A DNA stretch of 35,795 bases from an uncultured Holophagaceae bacterium (GTDB lineage Bacteria > Acidobacteriota > Holophagae > Holophagales > Holophagaceae): positions 1 through 35,795 of the forward strand of contig CAIQPH010000077.1 of NCBI GenBank assembly GCA_903873655.1, read 5' to 3'. The translations under genes and the position numbers were made by a program. The notes beneath the pieces were generated by a model. The model was not told the DNA's origin and made no database searches. It was given only the letters and a program-made list of their open reading frames with translations. Below, one piece after another: positions 17,878 through 27,577 of this stretch. Numbering within the stretch: position 1 is the first letter of the stretch; the number at the start of each line of letters is the position of its first letter.

Positions 17878-18858
17878 CTACTTCGCCGGGCTGCCGCCCT
17901 TCTCGTGGCAGCCGAGGCAGGTGGCCAGCTTGGGATCCGGGCTGCGCCAGTAGACGCTGTCCTGGTTGCCGAAGTCCTTCTGCAGCGCCTCGGGTATCCG
18001 GGCCCAGTAGAAGGCGAAGGCGGTGGACCCATCGGCCTTGGTCTCCTTCATGTAGAGCGGACCGGGTTCGGTGCCTGGCCTGCCCTTGACGTCGGAGAAA
18101 GTGGACATGACGGCGTAGGCCCCCGGGGGCAGCGCCTTGCCGGCCTTATAGGCGTCAATCCCGGAAGCCGTGACCCAGACCCTTCGCCAGCGGTCACCGT
18201 GGGCCTTGCTGCGAATCGGATCAGGCTCCGCAGGTTCCAGGCTGGCATAGTCCAATGCCCTGATCGGCAGGTCAGCCTCAAGGTCGTTCCGTTTGGCCTT
18301 GTCGGCCTCGGCAGCAGCCTTGTTGGTCTCCTCGCTGCCGAAGACCATGATGCCGCCCAGCTTCCCGCTGAAGCCCCAGCAGCCGAGCCAGATCAGCCCC
18401 ACGAGCAGGGCCGGGGCCCCTACGCCCCGTTCCCAGAAGCGGCGACCCGCATGATGCCGGTGGTCTTTCCCATCAGCCCCGACATGGCTATCCCGGCGCC
18501 AAGTCCGCCACAGGAGGAAGGCGCACAACCCACCCACAAGGAAGCCCGCCAGGGCAGCGAGGATATGGACCTGCAGAATCCGCTGCAGCACCTGTTTCTC
18601 GCTGGCGACCACCGGGATGAAGCTCGAAGGGCCGATCAGGTTGATCTGGCGCCCCCAGACCAGACCGCTGAACAGGGCGATGGTGCTGGCGAGCCATCCA
18701 ATGGCGGCCAGGAAGAAGGACGTGGCCAACAGGGACCTTCCCTGGCGGTGGAAGGAGCCCAACATGGCCACTGGAAGCGCTGCCACCAATCCCAGGGGGA
18801 GGTGAACGAAGGCCGGGTGCTCCCGGGCGATGAATTCGATCAGGGGCGATGCGGTCAT
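17878..18858 (-). CDS. Membrane protein with DUF2231-like N-terminus and cytochrome P460-type C-terminal domain
   Basis: This 326-residue protein is the last gene of the cytochrome operon. The N-terminal ~170 residues have four hydrophobic helices, with HPAFVHLPLGLVAALPVAML at the start typical of DUF2231 membrane domains. A His-rich linker (GADGKDHRHHAGRRF) follows the third helix. The C-terminal ~130 residues look like a cytochrome P460 domain: WRRVWVTASGIDAYKAGKALPPGAY, YMKETKADGSTAFAFYWAR, and a terminal haem c site CLGCH about 13 residues from the end. The P460 part would sit in the periplasm and could pass electrons to or from the cytochromes encoded upstream. The ATG at 18858 follows TGGAG and lies 12 nt after the barrel gene. 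P460 enzymes oxidise hydroxylamine, but that activity should not be assumed here. Confidence 0.82.
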   Translation of the reverse strand: MTASPLIEFIAREHPAFVHLPLGLVAALPVAMLGSFHRQGRSLLATSFFLAAIGWLASTIALFSGLVWGRQINLIGPSSFIPVVASEKQVLQRILQVHILAALAGFLVGGLCAFLLWRTWRRDSHVGADGKDHRHHAGRRFWERGVGAPALLVGLIWLGCWGFSGKLGGIMVFGSEETNKAAAEADKAKRNDLEADLPIRALDYASLEPAEPDPIRSKAHGDRWRRVWVTASGIDAYKAGKALPPGAYAVMSTFSDVKGRPGTEPGPLYMKETKADGSTAFAFYWARIPEALQKDFGNQDSVYWRSPDPKLATCLGCHEKGGSPAK

Positions 18859-18870
18859 GGCACTCCAGGG

Positions 18871-19740
18871 TCAGAAGATGCGGGTGACGTTGAACCCGAT
18901 GGACCAACTCGCCGATGGGCGGGGACCGCCACCGTAATCACCGCTCAGCACCTGATTGGCGGTGGTGCCGATGACGTTCGTGCCGAACAGCGAGAACCGG
19001 TGCTTGAAGGTCTTGTAGGAGACCCCGGCGGCGAATCCGTTCTGATAGGTGGAGCCGTCCGTGCTGCCTTCTGGGGCCGCCTTGGAGAACTTGGAGGGCC
19101 GGGGATAGTACTCCGTCACCACCGAGAATTTTTCGGTGAGGTTGGCGCGGAGGCCAACCCCCACATTGAAAACACCGCCGGTGTTGGGTGTCGTATTCGG
19201 TGTGGCACCCGGAGGAACGGCCAGGATGGTATTCGTCGTGGTGGTCTTGGTGATGTAGGTGGGCACTAGGGAGAAGATGATGTCATCCGTGATGAAAATT
19301 TCCGTGGGCACCTGAAAGGTCCCACCGAAAATACCCACCCTTCCCAGGGGTGTGATGGTCCCCTTCACCACTTCGTCGAACCGCTCCGCCCGGAGTGCCA
19401 TCCGCACGCGGTCGCCGTTCAGCACCTGCTGTTGCAGGCCCAGGGTGAAGGTCTTGTTGTCCGGCGTGCGGTAGATGAAGGCATTCAAGCCCTTGATCGG
19501 CTTGATACCGAAGGTGAACCCGATCCCGGAATAGGTATAGCCATCCAGACCGTAGACATCCTTGCCGTGGCCCTGCACGGGCTGGACGAACCGGTGGGTG
19601 AAAGCCATGCCGATGTCCCAGAACTGCATCCGTTCAGCACTGGGGAGGTTTAGCACCAGAGGAACCTCTGACGATTCGGCATGGAGCGCTCCCCCAGCCA
19701 GGACGGCGCAGGCGAGCAGAGGGGCGGTCTTCCGTGTCAT
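18871..19740 (-). CDS. DUF5777-like outer-membrane beta-barrel protein
   Basis: This 289-residue protein has a signal peptide (MTRKTAPLLACAVLAGGALHA) and then alternating strand-like segments. These include MQFWDIGMAFTHRF, DVYGLDGYTYSGIGFTFGI, FTLGLQQQVL, RVRMALRAERF and the terminal SASWSIGFNVTRIF, which ends in Phe as outer-membrane barrels usually do. The FGLD-type segment and the HRF block resemble the DUF5777 barrel family. The ribosome site AGGAGA is 5 nt before the ATG at 19740, and the gene is 16 nt from the cytochrome c gene. By position it may be the outer-membrane channel or anchor of the multihaem cytochrome, as in porin-cytochrome conduits. That is inference; about 12-16 strands is my rough estimate. 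Confidence 0.8.
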   Translation of the reverse strand: MTRKTAPLLACAVLAGGALHAESSEVPLVLNLPSAERMQFWDIGMAFTHRFVQPVQGHGKDVYGLDGYTYSGIGFTFGIKPIKGLNAFIYRTPDNKTFTLGLQQQVLNGDRVRMALRAERFDEVVKGTITPLGRVGIFGGTFQVPTEIFITDDIIFSLVPTYITKTTTTNTILAVPPGATPNTTPNTGGVFNVGVGLRANLTEKFSVVTEYYPRPSKFSKAAPEGSTDGSTYQNGFAAGVSYKTFKHRFSLFGTNVIGTTANQVLSGDYGGGPRPSASWSIGFNVTRIF

Positions 19741-19756
19741 CGGGTCTCCTGAGTGC

Positions 19757-20107
19757 TTACTTGGCCGCAAACTTGCGCATGATGGGAATCATCTTTTCGA
19801 CATCCGCCGGGGTCATCTTGTCCTTGAAGGCGGGCATCTTGTCCTTGCCGTCCAGGGTGATCTTGATCCAGTCGCCATCCTTCTTCTTGTTCGCCTTGCG
19901 ACTGTCGGTGAAGTCGAAGCCGTTGTCGGGAAGCGGCTTGCCGTTGTTGTCACGGCCACTGCCGTTCGCACCATGACAGCGGGCGCAGGCATCATTCCAG
20001 TACTTCTGGTAGTCGCTCCCCGAGAACTTGGGCAGGTCCTTGGCAGCGTCACTGGCGAACAGGGGCGCACCCATGAGGAGCAGGGAGGAAAGGAAGATTC
20101 GACGCAT
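19757..20107 (-). CDS. Small monohaem cytochrome c
   Basis: This 116-residue periplasmic protein has a signal peptide (MRRIFLSSLLLMGAPLFA), one haem c attachment site CARCH near residue 41, and a class I fold pattern with DKMPAFKDKMTPADVEKMI near the end. The Met of KMPAF is the likely distal ligand. It would shuttle single electrons in the periplasm. The ATG at 20107 has an AGGAGA site 5-6 nt before it; the longer frame upstream of it has no sensible signal. It sits 41 nt after the giant cytochrome gene and 16 nt before the barrel gene, so it is probably part of the same operon. Confidence 0.92.
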   Translation of the reverse strand: MRRIFLSSLLLMGAPLFASDAAKDLPKFSGSDYQKYWNDACARCHGANGSGRDNNGKPLPDNGFDFTDSRKANKKKDGDWIKITLDGKDKMPAFKDKMTPADVEKMIPIMRKFAAK

Positions 20108-20148
20108 GCAGTCTCCTGTGGAGTGGTTGAGTGATACCGAGTGATGGC

Positions 20149-21057
20149 TCAGTTCCATTTGTTGTTGCTGGCGGTGTGGGTCTGACCATGGCAGCTGAGG
20201 GCGCAGCCACCCTTGCCTTCAGTTGTTGAGGTCACGGTATACGTCTTGGCGCCGGTGGGCGTGGTTCCGAAAACGATCGTGTCGCTTGGATACTGGTCAG
20301 AAGGCGTGCCACTGACACCGCTGACGGCGGTGGTGTCGAGGTATTTGAAGTGGTTTCCAACGGTATTGGTGATTCTACTGGTGTTATTGAGATGCCCACC
20401 AACCATGTCGTGGCAGGTGTCACAGGTCGTATTGTGGGCACTCGGGCTGCTGTGCCGACCCGTGAGAGCGTTGTACTCGGGCGCCGAGGTGGAGGCAATT
20501 TTGTGACAGGCGATGCAGTAGGTATTGGCGTTCACAGGGTTGGTACCTGATTGCCAGCCGGGCGTGGTCTGACCCCCGTGGCAGCTGATGTTGGAGCAGG
20601 TGAACTGGGTGGCGCTGGCGGTGTAACCAGCCACCGAGGCCTGCGAGTTGAAGGTCGGATCGACGGACACCGAGGCTGGGCCCACCGTGACGGGTGTCGC
20701 GAGCCGCTTGTTGGCATTGCTGTAGTGAGTCTGGGCTGAGTCGTAGGGCACAGAGCCCACGTGGCAGGCTTCGCAATCGGGATAAGCCGAGGCCGTCAAG
20801 CTGGTTGGCAGGGCCGGTGTGGTCCGAGTGAACGTCAGCAGGGCAAGGTGCTTGGGATGCGCACCGGCCAAATTCGGCCAGGCGGCGCCGGTGGGTCCCA
20901 CGGTGGTGAAGTTGGAGCCGGTGTGGCAGGAAAGGCAGGTGCCCACGCCTAGCCCTGCTGTCAGGGGCGAGCCAAGGATGTGGCAGACGGTGCAAACGGG
21001 ACCGGTCTTGGTGGTGCTCCCGGACTGATCGTGACAGTTGATGCATTCCCCCTCGAA
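20149..21057 (-). repeat. Cytochrome repeat unit 3 (302 codons, ends with gene)
   Basis: Third eight-haem unit, beginning FEGECINCH. It carries sites CINCH, CTVCH, CLSCH, CEACH, CSNISCH, CIACH, CDTCH and CALSCH. It stops about 13 residues short of a full unit, right after the terminal CX3CH site, so the protein ends at a natural repeat boundary. Confidence 0.85.
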
Positions 21058-23667
21058 CTGAGCCTGGGTGAGGGTCTGGTGGTGATTCCCGAGGGTACTC
21101 TGGCTCGTACTCAGGTAGGGGATGGGATGGGCCACGCCTGATCCTTGGGGAGCGGTCCAGTGGTTCTGCGTTGAGGAGGCCACATGGACCTGGGTGTGGC
21201 AGGTCAGGGCACAACCCCCATCACCTTCCGGCAAGGACAAGGCCGGGTTGATGACATAGGGGGGAGTGCCTAAGGCGGAGATCGGGTAGCTAGTGGTGTT
21301 CTTGAACACCACGGTGCCGCTGGGCAGCTTCGTGGCGCTGGTGACAGCATGGAGATTGAGCTGGGCGAAGTGGTTCACGGCCCCCAGGTTGGCATTGGCC
21401 GAAGTCATGTCGTGGCAGATGGTGCAGTCAGTAGCGGCCGCTTGGGCGTGGGTGCCGTAGGAATGGCGGCCGACAGCATCGTTGTACTGCGAGCTGGTGG
21501 TGCCGCCATTGACCTTGTGGCACGAAGAACACTGGGTGGTGATCTTGGTGGTACTGGTCCAGTTGGGTGTGGTCTGTCCACCGTGGCAGCTCGCGTTGGA
21601 GCAGGTGTTCGAGGACCCATTGAACACCGCCGTTCCCGCACTCTTGGCGTTGTAGGCGGGATCAAAGCTCACGGGAGCGGGTCCAGCAGGAGTGCTGTTC
21701 CGGGCATTCGCATTGTTGTAGTGAGTCGCACTGCCGGTGCTGCTGCCTGCATGGCAGGTGACACAGGTCAAGGCGGTGGGCAGCGTCATATGGGTGTTAT
21801 GGGCACCCGCGATGCTGGGGAAAGTGCCACCGGTCGGGCCATTGGGGAGGCTGGATGGGCCTACATGGCAGGACTGGCAGGTGCCATTGCCATTCCCCGC
21901 GAGAGTGGGGTCGGCCAGCTTGTGGCAGATCTGGCAAGCAGGGGCCGCCGAATTGGGCGAGGTGCCAGAAATGGCATGGCAGACCTTGCAATCCGCCGTG
22001 AAGATGGCCAGGGTAGCGGTCATGTGCCCATTGCCCTGGGTATCTGGGGCACTGGTGGACAGAAAAGGTACGGGATGGGGGGCGCCGCTGGACTGCCAGG
22101 TGTCGAGCGGAGCGCCAGTATGGATGTGGGTATGGCAAGTCAGGGCGCACCCGCCGTTGCCCTCTGTGGCGCTGGTCACGGCGTAGGTTCCGCCGGTGAC
22201 GATGAGGGGGTCGAAGACGATGGTGCCACTGGGCATCTGGTCTGCAGGGCTTCCAGTGGAAGCACCATCAACCGCCTCGGTATCAAGGTACTTGAAGTGG
22301 GCCGAAGCCCCAGGGGAAGTGCCGTTGGTCATGTTGTGGCAGGTGGTGCAGGCGATGCCGTTGGCCACCACGGTGGTATTGTGGGTGCCCTGACTGTGAC
22401 GGCCGAAGGCGTCATTGAACTGAGTGATGGTTCCCGCGGCGGCGGCCACCCCGTGGCACATGGTGCACTGCGTACTCGAGTTGATGGATCCGCTCTGCTG
22501 CCAGCCAGGTGTAGTCTGGCCGCCATGGCAACGCACGCTGGAACAGTTGAGCTGCGATGGGCTAAAGGTGGGGTTGCCACCCGTGAGCGAGCTGAAGATG
22601 GTATTGATCGAGACGGTGGCGGGACCTGTCGCAGGAGAGGCGATTCTCTGATTGGCATTCGCGTAATGAGTGGTGGTTCCGCTCCCGGCGCCCGCGTGGC
22701 AGGTGTCGCAGGTCAGCTGGGTGGCCAGGGCCATGTGTTTGAGGTGAGCACCAGCCAGGCTGGGGAAGGCCGAGCCCGTGGGCCCGCTCGACAGTCCGGC
22801 GGCTCCCGCATGACAGGACAGGCAGGTTCCCGCATCGGTGCCGGAGGCCGTAGGATCCGCCAGCTGGTGGCAGACATTGCAGAGCGGGGCCGAAGCCAGA
22901 GGCGAGCTGCCGCTATAGGCATGACAATGGGCGCAATCGGCAGTGAAGGCGCTGACCGTGACGGTCAGGTGGCCATTCAGGCTGGAGTCGGTCTGCCCTG
23001 CCAGGAAGGGAACGGCGTGAGGCGCGGCATTGGCGCCGTGACACAGCGTGGCGTTGTAGCAGCCAGGCTGAGTGCCCGCCGGGGCGGGAGAAACTGGATG
23101 CCCGGCCGGATTGTTGGGGGACCCGGCATAGTGGCACTGGGCACAGACGGCGGCATTGGATGGATCAGTCGTGGCGTGGTTGTAGGCGGACCCGCCGGAA
23201 GTGCGCCAGGGCTTGGGCGGATGGGGCGCCTGGGCGCCATGGCAGGCGGAGCAGGCACTGGCCGACGCCCCGCCCGAGAAATCCCTGGCGTGGCAGATCT
23301 GGCAGGACACTAGACTCCCTCCCGTCGTGGGATCGGCAGCCATCTTGGCCCGCACGCCGTGCAGGGCCGGGTTGGCAAAGCCGGGTGTCGACTGGTGGTG
23401 GCAGCCGCTGGTCATGCAGGTGGGAATGCCGCTGCCCACTCTGAGGATGGAGACTTCATGGCACTTGGTGCAGGCATCGACGCCTTGAACGGCCTGTCCG
23501 CCGTGGGCATTTATCCAGCCAGTGGGATGGTAGTCGCCGTAGTACTGGGCCACGCTGTTGGAACCCTTGCCGCTTCCACAGCCCAGCAGGAGGAAGACCG
23601 AAAGCGCAGAGCAGATCAGGGGCCAGAAGCAGCTTGGTTTCTTGTTCCAACACCATTTCCTAGGCAT
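20149..23667 (-). CDS. Giant multihaem c-type cytochrome lipoprotein (about 30 haem sites)
   Basis: This 1172-residue protein has a signal peptide ending in a lipobox (LLLGC near residue 30), so it should be lipid-anchored, perhaps at the outer membrane. I count 22 CXXCH sites plus eight wider ones: four CX4CH (CMTSGCH, CSSVRCH, CSNASCH, CSNISCH), three CX3CH (CALTCH twice, CALSCH) and one CX5CH (CYNATLCH). The head (residues 1-240) has six sites. Three units begin at residues 241, 556 and 871, each with the order CXXCH x4, CX4CH, CXXCH x2, CX3CH. The CX4CHGGQTTPxW...CXXCH block is the signature of Geobacter-type CxxxxCH/CXXCH proteins. The ATG at 23667 follows AGGGGA; the longer frame lacks a better site. 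It heads a four-gene operon and is divergent from a two-component pair. The function is probably long-range or extracellular electron transfer, by inference. Confidence 0.92.
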   Translation of the reverse strand: MPRKWCWNKKPSCFWPLICSALSVFLLLGCGSGKGSNSVAQYYGDYHPTGWINAHGGQAVQGVDACTKCHEVSILRVGSGIPTCMTSGCHHQSTPGFANPALHGVRAKMAADPTTGGSLVSCQICHARDFSGGASASACSACHGAQAPHPPKPWRTSGGSAYNHATTDPSNAAVCAQCHYAGSPNNPAGHPVSPAPAGTQPGCYNATLCHGANAAPHAVPFLAGQTDSSLNGHLTVTVSAFTADCAHCHAYSGSSPLASAPLCNVCHQLADPTASGTDAGTCLSCHAGAAGLSSGPTGSAFPSLAGAHLKHMALATQLTCDTCHAGAGSGTTTHYANANQRIASPATGPATVSINTIFSSLTGGNPTFSPSQLNCSSVRCHGGQTTPGWQQSGSINSSTQCTMCHGVAAAAGTITQFNDAFGRHSQGTHNTTVVANGIACTTCHNMTNGTSPGASAHFKYLDTEAVDGASTGSPADQMPSGTIVFDPLIVTGGTYAVTSATEGNGGCALTCHTHIHTGAPLDTWQSSGAPHPVPFLSTSAPDTQGNGHMTATLAIFTADCKVCHAISGTSPNSAAPACQICHKLADPTLAGNGNGTCQSCHVGPSSLPNGPTGGTFPSIAGAHNTHMTLPTALTCVTCHAGSSTGSATHYNNANARNSTPAGPAPVSFDPAYNAKSAGTAVFNGSSNTCSNASCHGGQTTPNWTSTTKITTQCSSCHKVNGGTTSSQYNDAVGRHSYGTHAQAAATDCTICHDMTSANANLGAVNHFAQLNLHAVTSATKLPSGTVVFKNTTSYPISALGTPPYVINPALSLPEGDGGCALTCHTQVHVASSTQNHWTAPQGSGVAHPIPYLSTSQSTLGNHHQTLTQAQFEGECINCHDQSGSTTKTGPVCTVCHILGSPLTAGLGVGTCLSCHTGSNFTTVGPTGAAWPNLAGAHPKHLALLTFTRTTPALPTSLTASAYPDCEACHVGSVPYDSAQTHYSNANKRLATPVTVGPASVSVDPTFNSQASVAGYTASATQFTCSNISCHGGQTTPGWQSGTNPVNANTYCIACHKIASTSAPEYNALTGRHSSPSAHNTTCDTCHDMVGGHLNNTSRITNTVGNHFKYLDTTAVSGVSGTPSDQYPSDTIVFGTTPTGAKTYTVTSTTEGKGGCALSCHGQTHTASNNKWN
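21058..22002 (-). repeat. Cytochrome repeat unit 2 (315 codons)
   Basis: Second eight-haem unit, beginning FTADCKVCH, exactly 945 nt long. Sites are CKVCH, CQICH, CQSCH, CVTCH, CSNASCH, CSSCH, CTICH and CALTCH. Shared landmarks with the other units are GPTG..FPS.AGAH, HYNNAN, CHGGQTTP and NDAVGRHS. Confidence 0.88.
22003..22947 (-). repeat. Cytochrome repeat unit 1 (315 codons)
   Basis: First eight-haem unit, beginning FTADCAHCH, exactly 945 nt long. Sites are CAHCH, CNVCH, CLSCH, CDTCH, CSSVRCH, CTMCH, CTTCH and CALTCH. The order and spacing of sites match units 2 and 3, indicating internal duplication of an ancestral eight-haem domain. Confidence 0.88.
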
Positions 23668-23771
23668 GAAAATTCCCCTGTGAGATGGGCGGCTGGTTGA
23701 TGACTGGGAGAGGGACCAATAGTCTGCCATCGGCTTGTCACGGAACGAGCTGAAGAAGAAGGAAACCGTTT

Positions 23772-23963: not shown

Positions 23964-26936
23964 ATGCACTCGCGAATGACAGGACACCGTTCTTCCCGCA
24001 GGGGAGTCCTGCGATGCCTTGCCATCGCCTTGGCTTGGCTGTGCATGACGCTCCCGGTCCTGGCATTGGATCCATCCCGGCCACTCTCGACGCATGCCTC
24101 TCGCACCTGGCGCAGTGAGGATGGCCTGCTCCAGGATACGGCGTCGGCTCTGCTCGAATCGCAGGACGGGTTCCTCTGGGTCGGCACCGAAGCAGGGCTG
24201 GTCCGTTTTGACGGCGCCAACTTCGAGCATTACTTGCGCATCAACCTGCCTGGATTCATTCATAACGACATCCAGTGCCTGGCGGAAGGCCCGGATGGCG
24301 CCCTCTGGATCGGAACTTCCGAGCCGGGTCTCTACCGCCTCCAACGAGGTGAGATCCAAAGCTTCGGCTCGAAAGAAGGTCTGCCTGATCGGGCCATCCG
24401 ACGCCTGCTTCGCGATCACAGTGGCACCTTGTGGGTGGCGCCCGTGGAGGGGTCCCTGCTTCGATTCGACGGGGTACGTTTCCAGTCTGCGTCCTCGGAT
24501 GCGGTGCACATGCGGATCCGGGCGCTCGCAGAGGACCCGGAAGGCACGATCTGGGTGGGCACGGCAGGGTCAGGCCTCTGGCGCCTCCGGGAAGGTCGCC
24601 TGGCCTTGGCGGCCCTGACCGCCGCAGAGATCACCGCCCTGAGTGTGCGAGCGGACGGGGAAGTTCTGATCGGCACTCGCTCCCAGGGAGTGCAGGTGCT
24701 CACGGAGGGGCGGCTGGAAGTTCCGGTCTGGGCGAAGCAACTGCCCTCCAAGCCCATCAGTTCCCTGCTCGTGGACCGCCAGAACAGCCTATGGATCGGC
24801 CTCGAACAGAATGGGCTCTACCGCCTGAACCAGGAAGGCCGGCTCGAAGCGGCACCTGCTTCCCTCGGTTCCCGTTGGACGCCGATTTCCTTGCTGGAAG
24901 ACAGTTCCGGCGCCTTGTGGTCAGGCAGCGATGAACGGGGCCTGCGGGTCCTCTATCCAGTGCCCTTCCAGACGGTACCCGTGTGGGGTGGGGATCCCGA
25001 GGAACCCGCCCGGATGGTCTGCCAGGATGCTCAAGGGACGGTCTGGTGCCTTACTGGTGAGCAGGCCTTGGGCAGGATTCAGCATGGGCGCGTCGAAAAG
25101 GTGAGCCCAGGGAGCCCGACTGGCGGCCCCATCACCTCACTCTGGCCCCGGCGAGCCGGGGGCCTGTGGGTGGGTACCCGGAGCGGGGGGTTGTACACCT
25201 TGGATCAAGGCCGGTTCCACCCGGTCCGCGGGTCCGACGGTCGATCGTGGGATGCCATCGTTTCCCTCTATGAGGACCCAGGCAACGTCCTTTGGGTCGC
25301 GACCTCCCGGCAGGGCCTCGTCAAGCTGGCCCCTGACACCGCCCCCATCCTGTTCCCCGCAGTCCTGGACATCCTGGCCATGACTGGCGGCGGATCGGGA
25401 CCGCTGTATCTGGCGAGCCGCACCCAAGGACTGGGGATTCTCGAGGCCAGCCAACTCCGCTGGCTGGGCAGGACCGAAGGGCTGGGTTCCACCGGGGCCC
25501 TCTCCCTGTATCTAGACACTGAAGGACTCCTCTGGGTGGGGACCCCGGAAGGCCTGCGCATCTACCGGGAAGGCACCTTCCAGAGTTCCGCCAACCATTC
25601 CGGCCCACTGCTCCTGAGCATCCACTCGATCCTGGGCGACCCGTACGACCGCCTGTGGTTCAGCACCGGGCAGGGTGTATTCCAGATGGCGCGCGCAGCG
25701 CTCCTCCGCCGCCTGGATGAACCCGGTCCGATTCCGGCGGTGCTCCTCGATCATCACGATGGCATGCCCTCGCGGGAAACCGCTGGAGGGGCCCAACCCG
25801 TCGCGTGGCTCACCCGGGAAGGAGAGCTCTACTTCCCCACCACCCGGGGGCTGACACGGCTGGAAGGCCGCGGCGCGCCCCTCCAGGGCCCACCCTTGCG
25901 CCTGCATATCCTCAGGGCGGAAAGCGACGAAACGGTCCTGCCCGACACTCTGCCGATCCAGGTCCCCCCGGGCACCCACCGCTTCGAAGTGTATTACGCA
26001 GCCACATCTCTGACCCGGGCCGACAAAGTGCGCTTCCGCTACCGGCTGGAAGGCTGGGAGCCCACCTGGAACGACGTGGGCGACCGCCGTTTTTCGGCCT
26101 ACTCGAACCTTCCCCCGGGGACTTACCGATTCGTGCTTCAAGCCTGGCGGGTTGACGAAGAGGGACCTCCGCAAGAGCGTTCCATCGAGGTGCATGTCCA
26201 GCCTTTCTTCTATCAGCGGACAACCTTCTGGGTGCTGTGCGCCCTGGGAGCAGCCGCCTTCGCAGGCTGGCTGCATCACCTCCGGCTCCAGCAACTGGAG
26301 GCCCGTTCGGCCGTGATCTCTGAGCGGAACCGCATGGCCCGGGAGATTCATGACCACCTGGCCCAGGGTTTCACCGGGGTCCTGCTCCAACTCGAAGCCG
26401 CGGAAGCCAAACTATCCCGCATGGTAGGCGACCCGGCACCGGTCCTCACCCGTCTCGATCATGCCCGGAACCTGGCTGTGGCAAGCCTGCAGGAGGCCCG
26501 TCGCTCCGTGATGGTCCTGCGCCCGAGAAGACCAGAGGGCACGGACCTTCTGGGGGCCATGCGCCTCCTGGCGGACCGGCTCCTGGCGGGCACGGACATC
26601 CAGGTGGAATTGGCGATGGTCGGTAAACCAAGGCCGCTCCGCGAACGCACCGAAGAGGAACTCATCCGCATGGCCCAGGAGATGCTCACCAACGCCCTCC
26701 GCCACGGCAAAGCCAAGTGGGTGAGGGTGGTGCTGCAATTCGAGGCGGGGAAGGTGCACCTCAGCGTCGAAGACGACGGCAAGGGTTTCGACCCTTCAGC
26801 AGATGTCGCAGGCTATGGGATGCGCAGCATCCGTGAAAGCGTCAAAAAACTCCGGGGCCAGTTGGACATCGATAGCAGCCAAGGCCTTGGCTCCCGCATC
26901 ACCATCACCCTTCCCACCCGGAGGTGGCGTTCATGA
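23964..26936 (+). CDS. Two-component sensor histidine kinase with beta-propeller sensor
   Basis: This 990-residue protein has a signal or anchor helix (residues ~14-36) and then a long periplasmic sensor. The sensor is made of repeated two-component regulator propeller segments, such as DGFLWVGTEAGLVRFDG, DGALWIGTSEPGLYRL, EGTIWVGTAGSGLWRL and ENVLWVATSRQG-type units, to about residue 640. A Y_Y_Y domain (FEVYYAATSL ... PPGTYRFVLQA, ~672-727) and one transmembrane helix (~752-772) follow. The cytoplasmic kinase is of the HisKA_3 type: REIHDHLAQG with the phosphoryl His near 796, N-box EMLTNALRHG near 903, and DDGKGFDP with GYGMRSIRE. The protein ends with a 4-nt ATGA overlap with its response regulator. 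It is divergent from the cytochrome operon, which it may control. The start codon lacks a strong ribosome site; ATG 23976 is an alternative. Confidence 0.95.
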   Translation: MHSRMTGHRSSRRGVLRCLAIALAWLCMTLPVLALDPSRPLSTHASRTWRSEDGLLQDTASALLESQDGFLWVGTEAGLVRFDGANFEHYLRINLPGFIHNDIQCLAEGPDGALWIGTSEPGLYRLQRGEIQSFGSKEGLPDRAIRRLLRDHSGTLWVAPVEGSLLRFDGVRFQSASSDAVHMRIRALAEDPEGTIWVGTAGSGLWRLREGRLALAALTAAEITALSVRADGEVLIGTRSQGVQVLTEGRLEVPVWAKQLPSKPISSLLVDRQNSLWIGLEQNGLYRLNQEGRLEAAPASLGSRWTPISLLEDSSGALWSGSDERGLRVLYPVPFQTVPVWGGDPEEPARMVCQDAQGTVWCLTGEQALGRIQHGRVEKVSPGSPTGGPITSLWPRRAGGLWVGTRSGGLYTLDQGRFHPVRGSDGRSWDAIVSLYEDPGNVLWVATSRQGLVKLAPDTAPILFPAVLDILAMTGGGSGPLYLASRTQGLGILEASQLRWLGRTEGLGSTGALSLYLDTEGLLWVGTPEGLRIYREGTFQSSANHSGPLLLSIHSILGDPYDRLWFSTGQGVFQMARAALLRRLDEPGPIPAVLLDHHDGMPSRETAGGAQPVAWLTREGELYFPTTRGLTRLEGRGAPLQGPPLRLHILRAESDETVLPDTLPIQVPPGTHRFEVYYAATSLTRADKVRFRYRLEGWEPTWNDVGDRRFSAYSNLPPGTYRFVLQAWRVDEEGPPQERSIEVHVQPFFYQRTTFWVLCALGAAAFAGWLHHLRLQQLEARSAVISERNRMAREIHDHLAQGFTGVLLQLEAAEAKLSRMVGDPAPVLTRLDHARNLAVASLQEARRSVMVLRPRRPEGTDLLGAMRLLADRLLAGTDIQVELAMVGKPRPLRERTEEELIRMAQEMLTNALRHGKAKWVRVVLQFEAGKVHLSVEDDGKGFDPSADVAGYGMRSIRESVKKLRGQLDIDSSQGLGSRITITLPTRRWRS

Positions 26937-27577
26937 CCACAGCCCCGACCGATCGCATTCGCCTGCTCATCGTGGACGACCACCCGGTCGTGCGTGATGG
27001 CCTCGTGTCCATCCTCCACGAAGGCGAACCTGACCTCGAAGTCGTCGGGGAAGCGGGAGACGGCAAGGAGGCCGTGGTCACCTGGAGGAACCTCCGGCCC
27101 ACTGTGACGATCATGGATCTGCAACTCCCCGGCCAGTCCGGGGTGGAGGCTGTCCAGGCTATTCGCCGGGAGGATCCGGACGCCCGGATCCTCGTGCTCA
27201 CCACCTTCGATGGCGATGCCGACATCCAGCGGGCCCTGGAAGCCGGAGCCCGCGGCTACCTGCTCAAAAGCGTGCGCAGAGCGACCCTCATCGAGGCCGT
27301 GCGCGCCGTGGCCGCTGGCCAGCGCTACCTGCCCCCGGCCACGGCCGCTCGCCTGGTGGAAGCCATGGAATCAGAGCGGCTCACACCCAGGGAACTCGAT
27401 GTGCTCAAGCTGCTCGGGGAGGGTCAGCGCAACCGCGAGATTGCCGATGCCCTGGGGTTGGCGGAAGCCACGGTGAAGATCCACGTGAACAACCTGCTGC
27501 GCAAGCTCGAGGCCAAGGATCGCACCGAGGCGACGGTCATCGCCTTGAAGCGAGGCCTGATTCACCTTGGATCCTAG
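26933..27577 (+). CDS. NarL/FixJ-family response regulator
   Basis: This 214-residue protein has an N-terminal receiver domain (LLIVDDHPVVRDGL with the acidic pair Asp15-Asp16, phosphoacceptor Asp62 in IMDLQLPG, conserved Lys in GYLLKS) and a C-terminal LuxR-type helix-turn-helix (LTPRELDVLKLLGEGQ and REIADALGLAEATVKIHV). It is the cognate partner of the kinase just upstream: the ATG at 26933 overlaps the kinase stop (ATGA) and has GGAGGTG 6 nt before it. A GTG at 26924 would add three residues but loses that site. It ends in a stop that overlaps the stop of rny on the other strand (CTAG). The likely targets are the divergent cytochrome genes, by context only. Confidence 0.95.
   Translation: MTTAPTDRIRLLIVDDHPVVRDGLVSILHEGEPDLEVVGEAGDGKEAVVTWRNLRPTVTIMDLQLPGQSGVEAVQAIRREDPDARILVLTTFDGDADIQRALEAGARGYLLKSVRRATLIEAVRAVAAGQRYLPPATAARLVEAMESERLTPRELDVLKLLGEGQRNREIADALGLAEATVKIHVNNLLRKLEAKDRTEATVIALKRGLIHLGS

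Follow-up and report, generated by a model that had tools for sequence, protein, structure and literature searches.

A lipoprotein cytochrome with 30 predicted haem sites, built from a six-haem head and three octahaem units, in a Geothrix-like acidobacterium

Introduction

Large multihaem cytochromes are already known, as is the CX4CHGG...CXXCH core of the Geobacter cytochromes of family TIGR01904. In the OmcA/MtrC and Pcc/Mtr conduits a multihaem lipoprotein adjoins a barrel and a second cytochrome, and for the OmcS, OmcE and OmcZ filaments long-range electron transfer by bis-His haems has been proposed. Cyc2, a fused cytochrome-barrel protein, is thought to pair a monohaem domain with a small barrel. 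The multihaem cytochromes of anaerobic methanotrophic archaea (ANME) have 20-80 haem sites, and one of them has 86 (PMC9012536). We have analysed a stretch of 35,795 nucleotides (nt) from an uncultured Holophagaceae bacterium (contig CAIQPH010000077.1 of assembly GCA_903873655.1, positions 1 to 35,795; hereafter the window). A gene on its minus strand (20149..23667) encodes a protein with 30 haem motifs, arranged as a six-haem head and three octahaem units. With moderate confidence, which its sequence and conservation allow, we regard this protein as a modular, mostly bis-His, lipid-anchored cytochrome for extracellular electron transfer in a Geothrix-like, iron-reducing acidobacterium, its haem loading and location being predicted.

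The host genome is a 3.47 Mb draft assembly of 328 contigs. Among named organisms it lies closest to Geothrix and other Holophagaceae (Acidobacteriota), some of which, for example Geothrix limicola Red804, are isolates. Geothrix fermentans is referred to in PMC8100337, by citation, as a known Fe(III) reducer.

The units of the window protein share the CX4CHGG...CXXCH core with the TIGR01904 cytochromes of Geobacter, but extend beyond it to eight haems and end in CX3CH. Outside Holophagaceae, hardly any instance was found of the three-unit array, the head or the gene cluster, and the distant Geobacter matches show mostly repeating 2,2,4 patterns (the figures giving the X residues of successive motifs). 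Frames with 68 motifs in Geobacter sp. OR-1 (locus L115:8918-17113) and 56 in Geomonas anaerohicana (L111:1149-7763) consist mostly of such 2,2,4 repeats, a distinct three-haem type of array. Also comparable are the octahaem proteins of Nitrospirae (L101) and the C-terminal domain of a Desulfuromonadaceae protein (L097), which have the order 2,2,2,2,4,2,2,3 C-terminally with the same core residues; unlike the window protein, they contain a single unit, with no six-haem head and no array.

The arrangement of a multihaem lipoprotein adjoining a barrel and a second cytochrome is common to the window cluster and the OmcA/MtrC and Pcc/Mtr conduits, and the window head resembles a protein encoded beside an OmcA/MtrC-type cytochrome. 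In contrast to Pcc/Mtr, the window cluster has neither a large porin nor a periplasmic partner of 8-10 haems; its barrel, of family DUF5777, is small, and the cytochrome encoded with it has a single haem. The ANME giants likewise carry very many haems on one exported polypeptide and are proposed to act in extracellular electron transfer; they are, however, archaeal and have S-layer domains or transmembrane anchors, whereas the window protein is a bacterial lipoprotein of near-regular octahaem units. The proposed long-range transfer by bis-His haems is shared with the OmcS, OmcE and OmcZ filaments, from which the window protein differs in being a covalent repeat array with a lipid anchor.

Results

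Coordinates are those of the window, and features lie on its minus strand unless a plus sign is given. The cytochrome lies in a single open reading frame (ORF) of 1193 codons (20149-23730). Translation likely starts at M22 (ATG at 23667), because a Shine-Dalgarno-like AGGGGA (23674..23679) stands 6 nt 5' of this codon and M22 is kept in at least 90% of the orthologues. An in-frame ATG further upstream (23730) is less likely to be used, and no AGGGGA-like sequence was seen upstream of it. From M22 the protein begins with a signal peptide and the lipobox LLLGC (23578..23667), judged by eye, whose Cys (codon 23578-23580) would be lipidated. This Cys and the Gly after it were invariant in 13 orthologues, a set made up of the window protein and 12 others that are 63-76% identical to it. 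The designation as a lipoprotein in a first-pass annotation of this DNA was thus borne out.

The same annotation had counted about 30 haem sites. A scripted motif count gave exactly 30: 22 CXXCH, four CX4CH, three CX3CH and one CX5CH. Their spacings run 2,4,2,2,2,5 and then three times 2,2,2,2,4,2,2,3. The first six motifs make up the head (23020..23580), which is followed by octahaem unit 1 (22078..23019), of the type that longer paralogues duplicate, by unit 2 (21130..22077), assigned to a penultimate type by the unit alignment and the unit tree, and by unit 3 (20152..21129), of the terminal type, which runs up to the stop codon. The units are pairwise 42-47% identical over nearly their full length (BLASTP, E 1e-60 to 1e-85), which upholds their proposed origin by duplication of an eight-haem domain. 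Their global alignment scores lay 19-26 standard deviations above those of shuffled controls that held every motif Cys and His fixed. The idea that the head and the units are copies of one ancestor was rejected, as no significant similarity was found (best BLASTP E 0.017).

An identical period of 945 nt had also been claimed for the units, and this held only in part. Site 1 does recur at 315 and again at 315 amino acids (945 nt twice), but the other seven sites drift, with intervals of 308-315 residues in the first step and 314-338 in the second (924-1014 nt overall). Because these sites vary, the repeated 945 nt must have come about by chance, through insertions and deletions that offset each other. 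Exact periodicity, which holds in both intervals for one of the eight sites, was accordingly discarded as evidence for a regular haem chain. When the window gene was searched for DNA repeats of at least 40 nt, none was found; a recent duplication in this copy is thereby ruled out, and the duplications in it are judged from its sequence to be old.

The motifs that depart from CXXCH lie at fixed places. In the head there is a CX4CH site (23398..23418) and the CX5CH site CYNATLCH (23038..23061). The CX4CH sites of units 1, 2 and 3 are at 22525..22545, 21583..21603 and 20578..20598, and their CX3CH sites at 22132..22149, 21196..21213 and 20188..20205, respectively. All were located by the motif script and by conservation among the orthologues, those of the units also by comparison of unit domains. 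Across the 13 orthologues, every one of the 30 Cys-Cys-His triplets was invariant. Of the 61 Cys in the mature protein, the lipobox accounts for one and the haem motifs for 60, which leaves none to spare. Moreover, 36 His outside the motifs were invariant for the 30 motifs, the other positions being invariant in 30% of cases (307/1013).

Picking units by their motif pattern could produce such conservation as an artefact. This was avoided by means of a pattern-free model, built solely on the three units of the window protein and run on the ORFs of related loci. It returned 139 long unit domains at 57 loci, some of which are near-duplicates, so that the conservation counts are not independent. 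The CX4CH residues were complete in all 139 domains, and those of CX3CH were kept in 102/104, 109/109 and 108/109. Eight His outside the motifs (238, 254, 329, 332, 355, 445, 478 and 537) were kept in 93-100% of the unit domains, by count one for each haem of a unit. Because the triplets are invariant, no Cys is spare and each unit has eight extra His, the non-canonical motifs are very probably real bis-His haem sites, as the first-pass annotation had suggested. A protein of about 22 haems, its CX3-5CH motifs being structural or unfilled, would accord with the general rarity of CX3CH and CX5CH as haem motifs, and a loading of 30 is itself a prediction. We nevertheless consider it very improbable, as over the 139 domains CX4CH and CX3CH keep their Cys and His as strictly as CXXCH does, the number of distal His fits eight haems per unit and no Cys is free.

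The distal His bear also on a different function, that of a multidomain redox enzyme of the octahaem reductase type rather than a wire. The units are octahaem, and their profiles gave weak matches to nitrite reductases. These matches, however, were limited to short stretches around the haem motifs, and the eight haems of a unit are matched by eight near-invariant distal His, so that no axial site is obviously open. Of all the explanations weighed here, an enzyme is the one to which we give the least credence.

The earlier recognition of a Geobacter-type domain was confirmed by a search with TIGR01904, in which three stretches of the protein matched (49.8 bits against a cutoff of 27). A CX4CH followed by CXXCH is present in each unit and is invariant in the 13 orthologues. 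Above the cutoff, the Pfam matches of the protein were to haem domains only, MtrC/MtrF domain II/IV among them; no S-layer domain was found by this search, and TIGR03507, the OmcA/MtrC family, did not match the protein. Sequence searches of the PDB gave no match for the protein or for its orthologue profile. Profiles of the units did match UndA, NrfA and other entries, within short haem-motif stretches.

Similarity to the solved filament cytochromes (OmcS, OmcE, OmcZ) was looked for in the PDB searches with both the protein and the profiles, and none was seen. This result, together with the N-terminal lipid anchor, tells against the protein being the subunit of a polymeric nanowire of the OmcS/OmcE/OmcZ kind. 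Such a subunit would also be multihaem, probably bis-His and apparently exported, and stacked haem chains are in general a frequent outcome among such proteins; but covalent duplication of units between a distinct head and cap is the opposite of self-polymerisation by a small subunit. We find a filament distinctly improbable.

When the syntenic locus was compared among genomes, the motif number was found to vary widely. The counts were 14 (L066), 17 (L077-L083), 20 (L039), 25 (L087, L123), 33 (L085), 39 (L122), 41 (L071) and 49 (L086), and the 30-motif form was present in the window and in over a dozen others. Among cultured isolates, this locus has 30 motifs in G. limicola and 17 in G. rubra, G. 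oryzisoli, G. paludis, G. campi and G. terrae. The partner genes stay constant across the range of 14-49 motifs; in more distant genera they are kept as well, while the outer flanks (RNase Y and alanyl-tRNA synthetase, AlaRS) were not found within the examined stretch.

The constancy of the partners matters for the main rival explanation, a periplasmic bridge, in which the lipoprotein, anchored in the outer membrane's inner leaflet, reaches into the periplasm and wires an inner-membrane quinol oxidase to the outer membrane, the units setting the span. The co-encoded inner-membrane and monohaem cytochrome partners would suit a bridge, and a linear chain of 30 haems, if spaced as in the filaments, would come to about the width of the periplasm (an argument from general knowledge, the geometry not having been computed). 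On the other hand, 14 to 49 motifs at one locus with unchanged partners are a poor fit to a fixed gap and so speak against a protein that spans one; the monohaem cytochrome c, moreover, could itself cross the periplasm. We regard the bridge as unlikely.

Paralogues with 31, 54 and 71 motifs occur elsewhere in some of the genomes. The largest, in a Holophagaceae metagenome-assembled genome (L060:6656-14671, plus strand), has 2672 codons in one open frame and encodes 71 motifs, in seven octahaem units and two six-haem heads; it is known from one contig of 72.8 kb. Cytochromes with 54 motifs in six units were found in two genomes (L120:7063-13464, minus strand; L057:9890-16117, plus strand). An assembly artefact was discarded as the source of this form, the gene being intact in a single-contig genome of 3.73 Mb. 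Beside the gene in L120 stand an efflux pump of the resistance-nodulation-division type and purine-type permeases instead of the partner genes known from the window. The 31-motif type (L073:8635-12829, L072, L075) also stands apart from the DUF5777 cluster, which is absent there; just upstream of it, in L073 and in the genomes of L072 and L075, lies a frame for a five-haem cytochrome.

In a tree of 53 units, units 1, 2 and 3 grouped with their positional counterparts across species. The 54- and 71-motif proteins end in a type 2 unit followed by one of type 3, and their further internal units belong to type 1, several of which cluster together within one protein; the 71-motif protein has in addition an extra first unit of another type. 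This grouping indicates that the family lengthens by copying blocks of the unit-1 type in its interior, the head before them and the two-unit tail behind them staying fixed. The order 2,2,2,2,4,2,2,3 occurs singly in the Nitrospirae protein L101, and the octahaem unit is therefore probably older than the arrays. A very high motif number that varies with the species, and the lack of an apparent catalytic site, would fit an electron store, that is, a surface or periplasmic capacitor with little directional conduction. We hold this to be improbable, since the unit types keep their order across species and the presence of a special unit at the end hints at a directed path, for which a capacitor has no need.

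Downstream of the multihaem lipoprotein gene, three genes follow on the same strand. The first (19757..20158) encodes a class I monohaem cytochrome c resembling subunit III of cbb3 oxidases, with its start probably at M18 (20107); the conserved KMPAF probably supplies its Met ligand. It is followed by an outer-membrane beta-barrel of family DUF5777 (18871..19770), assigned by domain match, synteny and a structure model, and by a membrane protein (17878..18858) with a DUF2231-like N-terminal part, whose match falls below the Pfam cutoff, and a C-terminal CXXCH domain. This last protein has conserved His and is a candidate for the quinol:cytochrome c step. The barrel model was of moderate quality (predicted local distance difference test score, pLDDT, 58.4; predicted template modelling score, pTM, 0.62), with about 12 strands, and its nearest solved folds were OmpG-like and NanC-like porins (template modelling score about 0.5).

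Divergent and upstream on the plus strand are a syntenic sensor histidine kinase with Reg_prop, Y_Y_Y and HisKA_3 domains (23964..26936) and a LuxR-type response regulator (26924..27577), its partner by domains and synteny; the large propeller kinase and the regulator (23964-27577) are likely candidates for regulating the cluster. The four-gene block adjoins this pair and AlaRS in about 20 records. Among 77 genomes of the family, octahaem units and a close homologue of the membrane protein (E <= 1e-80) were both present in 37 and both absent in 35; four had the units only, and one had the membrane protein only. Three of the four units-only genomes carry the 31-motif type of paralogue, and the fourth is a fragment. 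It may be noted that the window's genome has a second copy of the membrane CXXCH protein (L121:1767-2792, contig 155 of G000), 39% identical, with no other haem protein within the 5 kb examined; in the genus, most genomes have a similar second copy.

The head has a relative of its own. A stand-alone hexahaem lipoprotein encoded elsewhere in the window's genome resembles it with 39% identity (E 1e-25). The gene order there is a 493-codon frame without a known family, possibly a barrel, then a pentahaem cytochrome, the hexahaem lipoprotein and an OmcA/MtrC-family cytochrome (TIGR03507, 283 bits against a cutoff of 209). A docking module at the outer membrane is, by analogy, a possible role for the head, and we infer that the octahaem array would take the place held in that cluster by the OmcA/MtrC-type cytochrome. 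Putative outer-membrane conduit clusters of Geothrix were seen at L002:3-3623, L125:7373-12424 and L126:2919-11515, with a frame of about 480 codons (a possible barrel), a pentahaem cytochrome, a head-like hexahaem lipoprotein and at least one OmcA/MtrC-type cytochrome.

Discussion

In the extracellular reading, which we favour, the N-terminal lipid would anchor the cytochrome, most likely in the outer membrane. Electrons would leave the quinone pool via the DUF2231-like membrane protein with its one c-haem, pass to the monohaem cytochrome c and cross the outer membrane at the DUF5777 barrel, serving as passage or anchoring site, or at another conduit. The six-haem head beside the anchor would take them over from outer-membrane partners, and the octahaem units would relay them outward to an acceptor outside the cell, unit 3 being specialised as the terminal cap. 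Such a chain might serve respiration with Fe(III) or other extracellular acceptors. In evolution, the family would change in length by gain or loss of octahaem units.

Several points weigh against this reading. Location, haem loading and conduction are predictions from sequence. No solved structure is clearly homologous to the window protein, and an AlphaFold2 run on the mature cytochrome with 23 sequences gave a mean pLDDT of 29.8, with no residue above 50. The genomes in the co-occurrence count are related, and its statistics overstate their independence. As modelled, the DUF5777 barrel looks small and too narrow for a multihaem plug like MtrA. It could accommodate a monohaem domain, as proposed for Cyc2.

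More tentatively, the extracellular reading can be extended to a cable of evolutionarily determined length. Octahaem blocks would be inserted between the fixed head and the two-unit tail, giving forms of 14-71 motifs, and the cable would be served by a four-gene route that is neither Pcc nor Mtr, maybe with a Cyc2-like pairing of monohaem domain and small barrel. What we have not found described in the open-access literature is the modular octahaem series of Holophagaceae, with its caps, its internal growth and its four-gene cluster; no paper on this family in Geothrix, or on DUF5777, was found there.

There is dispute over how fast and how far electrons travel along the haem chain of a single polypeptide, largely because natural examples vary in every respect at once. 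Here one orthologous locus presents the same anchor, partners and haem unit at different lengths, some of them in cultured isolates, and this natural length series makes the dependence of electron-transfer rate or reach on length directly testable. The conservation of the non-canonical sites supports the inclusion of CX3CH and CX4CH when haems are predicted and counted. Acidobacteriota, which are common in soils and sediments, gain a candidate route of extracellular respiration that would escape searches for Mtr or Pcc porins.

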